DNA from: Syntrophobacterales bacterium
Lineage (GTDB): Bacteria > Desulfobacterota > Desulfobaccia > Desulfobaccales > 0-14-0-80-60-11
Reading direction: 5' to 3'
Assembly (NCBI GenBank): GCA_020060385.1
Contig: JAGVAH010000101.1
Coordinates: forward strand, 1 to 52,961
DNA length: 52,961 nt
Under the pieces are notes generated by a model. The model was not told where the DNA came from. It saw only the letters and a list, made by a program, of their open reading frames with translations, and did not search any database. Positions within the stretch are counted from its first letter, which is position 1; each line of letters begins with the position of its first letter. Of this stretch, positions 3,913 to 7,453 are shown piece by piece. The translations under genes were made by a program, and so were the position numbers.

Positions 3913-4010
3913 TTCACACGCGCCCTTCCTTAAACTCACTTCGGTGGAATTTGCCAGGGAGGACACTGCGGGGATAACCTCCAACCATCTACTAGCCGCC
4001 AGAGGTGAGC

Positions 4011-4307
4011 ATGTATCCGCCAGACGACCTGAAACAGCAGATGCAGCGCAATATCCAATCCCGGCTAAAAAAGATCGAAGGCCAGATCCGGGGTCTCCAG
4101 GGCATGATTGCCGCGGACAAGGAATGCGAACAGATCCTGGTGCAGGCGAAGGCTGCGCAATCCGCCTTGAAAGCGGTCTGCAAATTGATTCTGAAGACTT
4201 ACCTGATCCGCTGCTATGCAGGCGGTGCTGAGGTCCAGTCTCCCGAAGATATCTTGCGGAACCTGGACCAGGCGGTGGAGGTGCTCTCCAGGTTCATTGA
4301 CGGTTAA
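4011..4307 (+). CDS. CsoR/RcnR/CstR-family repressor, CstR-like (two Cys, no metal His)
   Basis: This 98-residue all-helical DUF156-type regulator contains RLKKIEGQIRGLQGMI and a helix with AAQSALKAVCKLIL. In copper sensor CsoR, the ligands are Cys, His 25 residues later and Cys 29 residues later. Here Cys39 and Cys68 keep the 29-residue spacing, but the intermediate position is Tyr64. A Cys pair without the His is the pattern of CstR, which senses persulfide/polysulfide by Cys-Cys crosslinking. I infer a reactive-sulfur (possibly selenium) sensor rather than a copper sensor. The ATG at 4011 has AGAGG upstream; a GTG at 4005 is the alternative. Its operator lies over its own promoter. The next gene encodes a sulfur-carrier-like protein, which supports the reading. 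Confidence 0.85.
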   Translation: MYPPDDLKQQMQRNIQSRLKKIEGQIRGLQGMIAADKECEQILVQAKAAQSALKAVCKLILKTYLIRCYAGGAEVQSPEDILRNLDQAVEVLSRFIDG

Positions 4308-4534: not shown

Positions 4535-4897
4535 ATGTCTAAGTTTCTTTTCATTATCAGCAAAGGGTTGGAAAGCTCAGGCAGCGCCACCCGGGCCCTG
4601 CAGTTCGCCAGCCTGGCTGCGGAAAAAGGGGAGCACGTGGAGGTCTTCCTCATCGACGATGCGGTGCACTGGGCCCAGGTGGGCATGGCCGAAGGCATCC
4701 GCTCCACCACCGGTGAGGTCATGAAGGACTTCCTGGACCAGCTCACCGGGCGTAACTGCCCCCTCCACGCCTGTAAAGCCTGAGCGGACAAACGTCTCAT
4801 CGGTCCCGATGAGATCATTCCCGGCGCGCAGATTTCCACGGCCCCGGCCCTGGTGGGCATGATGACCAGCCCGGAGTATAGGGTGTTTAATTTTTAA
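4535..4897 (+). CDS. DsrE-family protein with predicted selenocysteine (in-frame TGA, CxxU)
   Basis: Translation from ATG 4535 (AAGGAGG, 7-nt gap) gives MSKFLFIISKGLESSGSATR and reaches TGA at codon 83 (4781-4783). The same frame continues for 37 sense codons (ADKRLIGPDEIIPGAQISTA onwards) to TAA at 4895-4897, which overlaps the ribosome-binding site of the next gene. The whole 120-residue product has the length and fold pattern of DsrE/TusD-like sulfur relay proteins, while a stop at codon 83 would remove the C-terminal third. The TGA replaces the second Cys of the family's CxxC site, giving Cys80-Lys-Ala-Sec83; Cys75 is a further thiol. A SECIS-like hairpin follows (4795-4814). The protein is cytosolic with no signal peptide, and likely carries or reduces persulfide-type sulfur. 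Database pipelines will probably truncate it at 4783. Confidence 0.85.
4795..4814 (+). other. Predicted bacterial SECIS element of the DsrE-like gene
   Basis: A 7-bp stem (4795-4801 with 4808-4814) encloses GGUCCC, in which an extra G-C pair can leave a GUCC tetraloop. The loop GGUC begins 18 nt after the TGA. From memory this is the same sequence and spacing as in the E. coli fdhF SECIS (GGUCU, 18 nt), where the G and U contact SelB. The hairpin lies inside the coding sequence, as bacterial SECIS elements do. Confidence 0.8.
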
Positions 4898-4909: not shown

Positions 4910-7453
4910 ATGAAGAAAAACCTGGGGCTTGTTTTGGCAGCCCTGGCTACGGGGTTGGCGCTGTTCTTGCCGGCAGCGCTCCAGGCCAAGACCAGAACCT
5001 GCGTGCCGTTTTACTTGAAGACCGAGGACGGCAAGACCATCAATCCCTTGAGCGGCGAAAACGCCGACCAACCATACAGCCCCCGCCAGACCTGCGGCGC
5101 CTGCCACGACTACGGGAAAATCACCCAGGGTTACCACTTCCAGCAGGGCTGGAACCGGATCAAGGACGACTTCAATAAAAAGAAGCCCTGGGTCCTGTCC
5201 GACGGCATGATGGGGAAGTTCTGACCCCCCTCTTTTCGCCAGTTGGCGAAAAAGCACAATAATAACCCGGACGAAATCGATCTCACTCCCTTCGCCTTTA
5301 CCGCCGCGGGCGACCCCAAGACCCCGGGAGTGCCGGGTTGCGGCGGCTGCCATCCCGGGGGCGGCGGCCTGGAGTTTGACCGGGACGGCCAGCGCTATGA
5401 CCAGCGCCTCAAGGCCGACCCCGCCTTGGCCCAAAGCCTGGATGGGGATTATTACCAGAGCAAATGGGACAAAACCGGGGTGGTGGAGGCCGACTGTTTT
5501 ATCTGCCACCTGCCGGGCTACAATTTCAAAGAACGCAATATCCAGCTGCAATCCTTGAACTTTAAGTGGGCCACGGTCGCGGCTTCGGGCATCGGCCTGG
5601 TGAGCGGCCTCGTCAAGGCCGGCCAGCTGCCCAAAGTGCTTTACAACAAGCGCCTCTTTAATGAGGACGGCAAGGTGGTCCTGGACCTGGCTTATCCTCC
5701 CCCTGCGGAGAACTGCGTCTTCTGCCACGGCATGTCGGACATGAAGAAGCGGGGTTTCTCCTGGAACGACCGGATCAATCCTGACATCCATAACTTGCAG
5801 GGCCTGAATTGCGCCCATTGCCACCCCGCCATCGAAGATAAGAAACTGAAGATCACCAAAGAAATGCATAACTTCGCCAAAGGGCAGGAGTTCGTCTCCA
5901 CCGTGGCGGACGACCTGGACAACACCATCAAGACTTGCAAAGAGTGTCATGAACAAGGATACATGGGCGCCACCCGGCCCCGGCACCTGTCCATCAGGCC
6001 CAACCACCTGGACAAGATGGCCTGCGAAGTCTGCCATATCCCCGCCCTGCACCGCGCGGCCTTCGAGGGCTTTGACGTCACCACCGGCCAGATGGTGAAC
6101 TACCCCAAACTGGGCGCCAAGAAGATCGGCGCGGAGTTTACCTGGGGACCGGCCTTCCAGAGAGATGAACATGGCAAGCTGTGGCCGGTGAACCGGTTCA
6201 ATTCGGTGTTCTTTACCAACCAGGATAAGGACGGCATTAACTATCCCTTGTTCGCCCGGGAATTAAAGAAGGGGTATGACAAGGCCAAAGCCCAGCTTAA
6301 GCCCAAGAACCCCATGAAGCCGGAAGTGCACACGCCGGCCCAGATCAAGATCATGCTGGCCACTTTTGCGGAAACCTTGAAGGGCAACCAGCGCTTCCGG
6401 CAGATCAAACCGTACTACCACAAGGGCGGCAAGATGTACTTCTTAAATGGCCAGCGCGAGGTGGTGAGCGCCCCGGACGCCACCTGGGCCGGCCATATTG
6501 AGGGCTTCAACATCAATCACAACGTGGCCCCGGTGAGCCTGGCCTTAGGCGCCAACGGCTGCGGCGACTGCCACGCGGATAAGGCCCACATGTTCAAGGG
6601 CCAGATCGTCACCGACATGTTCGGGCCCGCCGGCAAACCGGTGACCGTCTCCGCTGGCCGGCTCTTCGGCTGCCAGCCCTGGGCCTTCACCCTTAACCAG
6701 ATTCACCAGCTCTACCTGACGCCCTACGTGAGCGGGCTGATCCTGCTCCTGGTCTTTGTCCTGGTGCTCCATTACACCGGGCAGGGCCCCAAGGTGGCGG
6801 ACTTCTATGCCGCGCCCGGGGAAATCCAGCGATTCAGCCTGGCGGAGCGCTGGACCCACCTGTTCCGCCTCACCACCTTCCTGATCCTCACCTTTACCGG
6901 TTACATCTTCTTCTACAACAATGTCTCCATGCTGCGGATGTTTTTCTCTTCCCAGAACTCTGCGGTCATCATTCACTGGTTGGCTGGCCTCATCTTTGTG
7001 GCCGCATCCATCGTCAGCCTCTGTCTCTGGTATAAGGACGCCAAGTTTGTGGCCTATGATCAGGAATGGCTGAAAAAGCGCGGCGGCTATATCGGCGGCC
7101 AGGAAGTGGAGGTCCCCGCGGGACGCCTCAACGCCGGCCAGAAGATCTTCTTCTGGCTGACCCTGGTCCTCTCTCTGATCATGGGAGTGACCGGCATTCT
7201 GCTCATCTTCAAGAACAGTTTGCCCTTGACCCTCAACTGTTTCCTGTCCACGGTCCACGGTTTCGTGGCCATCATCTTCGTGGCCGCGGTCATCGCCCAC
7301 GCCTACCTGGGCACCATCGCCAACCCCGGGACCTGGAGCGCCATGGTGGACGGCAAGGTGAGCCGGTTGTGGGCCAAGAAGCACCACTCGGAATGGTATA
7401 AGGAGTACATAGCCGGCAAGGATCAGGAAGAGAGCGACTCAGGGAGCGAATAA
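4910..7453 (+). CDS. Octahaem cytochrome c / cytochrome b fusion (CbcL-like) with predicted selenocysteine
   Basis: From ATG 4910 (AAGGAG 8 nt upstream) the frame starts with a signal peptide (MKKNLGLVLAALATGLALFL). It meets TGA at codon 105 (5222-5224) and continues unbroken to TAA at 7451-7453, giving 847 residues. CxxCH haem motifs begin at residues 62, 144, 196, 269, 301, 343, 372 and 551; the first lies before the TGA and seven after. A membrane domain of five helices (about 597-625, 651-672, 685-708, 746-768, 780-800) contains His in WTHLFRL, IIHWLAG, TVHGFVA and IAHAYLG. It ends like the formate dehydrogenase gamma subunit (YLGTIANPGTWSAMVDGKVS). Multihaem c plus FdnI/HydC-type b is the architecture of Geobacter CbcL, an inner-membrane quinol oxidase passing electrons to the periplasm. 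The Sec lies in GKF-Sec-PPSFRQLAKK. A SECIS-like hairpin follows. Its redox partner is unknown. Confidence 0.85.
5233..5252 (+). other. Predicted bacterial SECIS element of the cytochrome gene
   Basis: An 8-bp stem UUUUCGCC/GGCGAAAA closes an AGUU loop. The loop G is 18 nt after the TGA at 5222-5224, and the loop carries the GU dinucleotide expected for SelB binding. The stem is less GC-rich than in the DsrE-like gene, but the position is nearly identical. Confidence 0.7.

Follow-up and report, generated by a model that had tools for sequence, protein, structure and literature searches.

A predicted selenocysteine in a membrane-anchored octahaem cytochrome related to octahaem tetrathionate reductase

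We conclude with high confidence, from sequence comparison, that a gene in the window analysed here (the whole stretch of 52,961 nucleotides) encodes a selenoprotein. Its in-frame TGA at codon 105 would specify selenocysteine (Sec) in a protein of sulfate-reducing-type bacteria that joins an octahaem c-type domain to a dihaem cytochrome b. The octahaem half is distantly related to octahaem tetrathionate reductase (OTR; Shewanella oneidensis, PDB 1sp3; TIGR04315). We propose, with a probability of about 0.5, that the protein is a membrane-anchored, quinone-linked periplasmic oxidoreductase in which Sec-105 would act on a sulfur substrate near a Lys-ligated haem. The finding adds a widespread respiratory selenoprotein family whose genes are cut in two by standard annotation, with Sec next to haem chemistry and to a quinone module in organisms respiring sulfur compounds.

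The reading frame comprises 847 codons plus a stop, and the TGA is the sole internal stop in its translation (Table 1). ORF calling under table 11 yields two ORFs of 107 and 736 amino acids, the second without the N-terminal signal, as the earlier note had anticipated for standard pipelines. The shorter ORF carries an N-terminal hydrophobic segment and the haem motif C62GACH. The longer one carries seven CxxCH motifs, beginning at Cys-144, Cys-196, Cys-269, Cys-301, Cys-343, Cys-372, and Cys-551. Five long membrane helices are present in the structural model (residues 590–625, 644–668, 682–711, 742–766, and 773–804). The layout proposed earlier, with a signal peptide and the first haem before the TGA and seven haems and five helices behind it, is seen in both frame and model. 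Purifying selection acts on either side of the TGA (dN about 0.07–0.23, dS about 0.44–2).

Table 1. Positions of the cytochrome gene, its parts, and neighbouring features in the window
Feature	Position	Strand	Basis
CsoR/RcnR-family repressor	4011..4304	+	Pfam PF02583, E=6.7e-20 on 4005-4304
DsrE-family gene; second in-frame TGA 4781-4783 = residue 83, CxxU (CKAUADKR); probable selenoprotein	4535..4897	+	PF02635, E=5.4e-19
bSECIS-like hairpin of DsrE gene	4795..4816	+	-16.6 kcal/mol in 54 nt
Predicted Sec octahaem c / dihaem b cytochrome gene, TGA read through	4910..7453	+	Translation, orthologue comparison
Signal peptide, residues 1-26	4910..4987	+	Predicted by eye; low-confidence linker at residues 21-29 in model
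OTR-like octahaem c domain, residues 28-588	4991..6673	+	Profile and model comparison
Haem c motif 1, C62GACH	5093..5107	+	Translation; invariant in alignment
UGA, predicted Sec-105	5222..5224	+	Orthologues all TGA; sister clade Cys; other clades Ile, Ser, Gln, or Thr
bSECIS-like hairpin, arms 5233-5240 and 5245-5252, apical loop AGUU 5241-5244	5233..5252	+	Folding, covariation
Haem c motif 2, C144GGCH; predicted catalytic haem	5339..5353	+	Aligned with OTR haem 2
Haem c motif 3, C196FICH	5495..5509	+	Alignment
Haem c motif 4, C269VFCH	5714..5728	+	Alignment
D277 to K280	5738..5749	+	D277 aligned with OTR Asp150 position, K280 with Lys153
Haem c motif 5, C301AHCH	5810..5824	+	Alignment
Haem c motif 6, C343KECH	5936..5950	+	Alignment
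Haem c motif 7, C372EVCH	6023..6037	+	Alignment
Haem c motif 8, C551GDCH	6560..6574	+	Alignment
FdnI-type dihaem cytochrome b domain, residues 641-845; ligands H650, H689, H783, H797	6830..7444	+	1kqf_C, TIGR01583, Foldseek

We compared homologues over the segment GKF-x-PPSFRQL, a check that the earlier note had suggested, and found Sec and Cys forms as well as Ser, Ile, Thr, and Gln. TGA occupies codon 105 in 13 of 13 orthologues (70–88% identity), which stem from related genomes of several genera and two families of the order. A wider scan with one genome per species returned 80 loci. At the aligned site, TGA recurs in several phyla: it is found in the isolates Ammonifex thiophilus, Desulfoluna limicola, Desulfoprunum benzoelyticum, and Desulfothermus okinawensis, and also in metagenome-assembled genomes labelled Eisenbacteria, Thermoflexales, and Deferribacteres. 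Further Sec homologues, more remote and belonging to other families of the phylum, share the motif (GKWUPPSARQLA, GAWUPPSYRQLA). Site 105 is Cys in a large sister clade (GGNWCSPAPLYRQL), forming a Cys/Sec pair, and the remaining clades have Ile, Thr, Ser, or Gln, which indicates that residue 105 is non-essential to the fold. An octahaem-domain tree that leaves out the columns of the site requires at least five changes of the Sec label, pointing to repeated Sec/Cys exchange. A genuine stop codon or a sequencing error at the TGA, with the halves being separate genes or a pseudogene, as mechanical splitting of the frame would have it, is very improbable. The codon is TGA in independent genomes, with neither TAA nor TAG among the homologues examined, homologues have Cys in its place, and selection is purifying on both sides. 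Two objections raised with the original proposal, a sequencing error at the triplet and homologues split there into two proteins, failed on this comparison: the TGA is conserved across genomes, and the homologues are unsplit.

The hairpin downstream of the TGA has its stem start 8 nt and its apical loop 16 nt past the triplet. A SECIS-like hairpin had been placed 18 nt downstream; the hairpin itself is borne out and covaries, and that distance fits its apical loop, not its stem start. The AGUU loop has a G within its first two positions, as expected of a bSECIS hairpin. Compared with shuffles, the hairpin has a mean z-score of -1.65 in the 25 Sec forms, -0.17 in Cys forms, and -0.42 in the others. 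Pairing holds for 88.6% of cells across 20 distinct Sec sequences, two-sided changes occur in four of seven pairs, and the covariation score is reached by none of 500 shuffles. The Leu in the loop is encoded by TTG or TTA in each of the 25 Sec forms, two codons that make up 16.5% of the Leu codons of these genes, and the loop Gln codon is CAG in all 25; the counts come from related sequences and are not independent. At the loop codons, CTG, CTC, and CAA appear as well in the Cys and remaining forms. An Rfam gathering scan returned neither SECIS nor any other RNA family. Elsewhere in the window, TGA read-throughs with hairpins resemble chance frames, the DsrE gene excepted.

The machinery for Sec insertion, whose absence would have spoken against the proposal, is present: selA, selB, selC, and selD are all in the genome, SelD carries a TGA of its own and is Sec-containing, and the tRNA-Sec match scores 78 bits. 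In genome G000, contigs 30 and 134 (L001, L002) hold two equal-score tRNA-Sec matches, each at a contig end, which probably represent one gene at an assembly break. A tRNA-Sec-like match was obtained in all compared genomes and passed the cut-off in 53 of 59, and co-occurrence thus adds little.

We compared the octahaem domain with OTR at the level of profiles and of models. The family profile matches 1sp3 with E=1e-4, and hhalign against 20 TIGR04315 proteins gives 99.4% (E=9e-22) over haems 4–7; haems 1–3 align in order with those of OTR in the profile alignment. With the AlphaFold2 model of the domain (pLDDT 89.3, pTM 0.86), Foldseek found 1sp3 as the only significant PDB match (E=1.6e-5, 559 columns), at modest TM-scores of 0.37–0.46. 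This match emerged with the octahaem domain alone; the full-length model in Foldseek, and the single sequence searched against the PDB, yielded FdnI and nothing else. The two proteins are alike in overall fold by Foldseek, in having eight c haems in the same order, and in placing a Cys/Sec site between haems 1 and 2, and they differ in the membrane cytochrome b that is fused to the octahaem domain here. Membership in TIGR04315 was rejected, as the protein scores 19 bits and its homologues 35–54 bits against a curated cut-off of 375. Over the octahaem domain, none of the NCBIfam models rose above its cut-off. Lys-153 of OTR, a haem ligand in 1sp3, aligns with Lys-280, a residue kept in 42 of 44 rows. 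Together with six invariant or near-invariant spare histidines (76, 294, 320, 359, 366, and 537), Lys-280 accounts for seven of the eight sixth ligands of the c haems.

The membrane half is, judged by its sequence and model, an FdnI-type dihaem cytochrome b with all four His ligands present. It matches 1kqf_C with E=4.5e-22, the FdnI residues His-18, His-57, His-155, and His-169 aligning with His-650, His-689, His-783, and His-797. TIGR01583 is matched by the C-terminal domain only, with 134.9 bits (cut-off 115.85), and the full-length model finds 1kqf_C in Foldseek with E=3.9e-9. The likeness to FdnI, the γ subunit of formate dehydrogenase-N, lies in the cytochrome b domain and its four haem b histidines, but here the b domain is fused to an octahaem domain. 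No FdnG/FdnH-like genes were found among the immediate neighbours scanned.

Sec-105 forms part of the motif GK[FWY]UxPSxRQL, which characterizes the octahaem-cytochrome b family. Its place is the haem 1–haem 2 loop, which in OTR holds Cys-64, reportedly a pocket residue and not a ligand according to the 1sp3 work. In the TIGR04315 and octahaem-cytochrome b families alike, the Sec/Cys site is found between haems 1 and 2, past a conserved histidine (here His-76). We offer a shared origin of Sec-105 and Cys-64 as a hypothesis only, since Sec-105 precedes haem 2 by 39 residues and Cys-64 by about 10, and since profile alignment of the haem 1–3 block leaves the two unpaired. The family makes it testable whether Sec replaces Cys-64 of OTR and what selenium contributes there. 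A catalytic residue near the Lys-ligated haem is the role that fits Sec-105 best.

The protein had been described as CbcL-type. CbcL, MtrH, and MtoC combine an N-terminal multihaem c domain with a HydC/FdnI-like dihaem cytochrome b (PMC6295460, PMC9129911), and CbcL of Geobacter sulfurreducens has nine bis-His c haems and six membrane helices (PMC9129911). In this architecture our protein indeed corresponds, but the identity does not hold against the published description of CbcL. Our protein has eight CxxCH motifs, six conserved spare histidines, and one haem that is probably Lys-ligated, its model contains five helices rather than six, its c domain is OTR-like, and no Sec is reported in CbcL of G. 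sulfurreducens. The author of the earlier note knew of no described Sec in a CbcL-type cytochrome. This is upheld for the present family and motif, which are absent from the 119 families of a 2026 selenoprotein catalogue (PMC13188914), but not for Sec multihaem cytochromes in general, as ExtKL and a TIGR04315 octahaem cytochrome are catalogued, the latter from GenBank annotation only (PMC13188914). We found no description of an octahaem-cytochrome b selenoprotein in the open-access literature, and one may exist elsewhere. ExtKL (NF040886) shares with the window protein a multihaem c-type nature, one Sec, and the phylum, and it is encoded beside a homologue in one genome (G044); it differs in having five haems and its Sec in a GHxxPDGU motif past the last haem. 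Membership in ExtKL was rejected, as the NF040886 profile matched neither the window protein nor anything in its genome. The GHxxPDGU Sec of ExtKL-family loci (L160, L163–L168) occupies a position unrelated to site 105.

The cytochrome gene is preceded by a CsoR-like repressor gene and a DsrE-family gene, in this order, and is followed by a histidine kinase gene on the opposite strand. The DsrE-family gene probably encodes a selenoprotein in its own right: many relatives have CKACADKR, and Sec is found in G000, G003, and G007, again forming Cys/Sec pairs. The 2026 catalogue lists a DsrE-like family as UxxC (PMC13188914), which has PF02635 and a single Sec in common with the window gene, but in the opposite order, with Sec first there and second (CxxU) here. 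UxxC forms are represented in our compared set by L056 and L057. In several genera, a DsrE gene lies immediately next to the cytochrome gene, on one side or the other; outside the order, none was found beside it. The CsoR-like protein keeps two cysteines (KECEQ, LIRC), has Thr at the position of the copper-binding His of CsoR, and falls below the cut-offs for RicR/RcnR/FrmR models; its gene adjoins the cytochrome in the window genome only. Its sequence is compatible with a CstR-type persulfide sensor, which it possibly is (for background on CstR, see PMC10318464). The linked Sec-DsrE gene and CstR-like repressor suggest sulfane-sulfur chemistry. A conserved neighbourhood was sought and not found outside the order, where neighbours are mixed: a Hdr/FlpD-like cluster in Ammonifex, porin and thioredoxin/DsbD genes at L121, and a porin-like Alginate_exp gene at both L121 and L084. 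On contig 10 of G044 (63850–67840; L023, L165), a Sec octahaem-cytochrome b gene adjoins a Sec ExtKL gene.

In the oxidoreductase that we propose, UGA-105 would be decoded as Sec by means of the following hairpin and SelABCD. Electrons would pass between menaquinone near the cytoplasmic face and a catalytic c haem by way of both b haems and the c-haem chain; the alignment of Lys-280 with OTR Lys-153 predicts this catalytic haem to be Lys-ligated. Sec-105 would most likely serve as a selenolate nucleophile or redox residue toward a sulfur (or selenium) substrate in the pocket, with polysulfide, tetrathionate, thiosulfate, or a persulfide as candidates, and either direction, reductase or oxidase, would fit. 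We favour sulfur compounds because DsrE is encoded beside the cytochrome in several genera, with Cys/Sec pairs of its own. As a more tentative proposal, Sec may act at the catalytic haem as a selenolate ligand or nucleophile in several phyla, repeatedly gained and lost, which would constitute a haem-selenium site not described biochemically.

Other roles have to be weighed against this one. The protein could be an electron conduit from quinol to an extracellular acceptor, as in CbcL, with Sec having a structural or redox-tuning role and no substrate chemistry. The shared architecture (PMC6295460), the ExtKL gene, of extracellular-electron-transfer type, adjoining the G044 homologue, and the porin-like neighbours of L121 and L084 agree with such a role. 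We nevertheless consider it unlikely, as the c domain is OTR-like and spends 560 residues on eight haems, with Lys conserved at the ligand position of the OTR catalytic haem, and the haems of CbcL are all bis-His. The ligand count would allow Sec-105 to be itself the axial selenolate ligand of a c haem, since one sixth ligand is left over once the six spare histidines and Lys-280 are assigned. This is improbable, given that clades with Ile, Thr, Ser, or Gln at site 105 keep the six histidines and nearly always Lys-280, and given the pocket location reported for Cys-64 of OTR. A reductase detoxifying selenite, tellurite, or another oxyanion, finally, is suggested by ExtKL and ExtI, which have been connected with the reduction of selenite and tellurite in Geobacter (PMC5877670), and by the ExtKL gene adjoining one homologue. 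However, no ExtH-S genes lie beside the window gene and the linked DsrE points to sulfur, which makes a detoxifying role quite improbable. The reading that we prefer thus remains the quinone-linked oxidoreductase acting on sulfur compounds.

Some loci of the wider comparison deserve mention in their own right. In a mostly Desulfobacteraceae clade (L075, L077, L080–L083, L124), Ile or Thr stands at the Sec position and the haem ligands are kept; the function of this clade has probably shifted. At L119 (4790–6904), the cytochrome frame continues, where the contig ends, into sequence resembling rpoC. This contig may be a chimeric assembly, and its planctomycete label was therefore given no weight. 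Many TIGR04315 proteins of the phylum carry a TGA in NNF[C/U], aligned to Cys-64 of 1sp3 (NNFU loci L141, L144, L145, L149, L151, L154, L155, L157, and L158). This shows where Sec is located within the related TIGR04315 family, for which the 2026 catalogue gives an octahaem cytochrome without a motif (PMC13188914).
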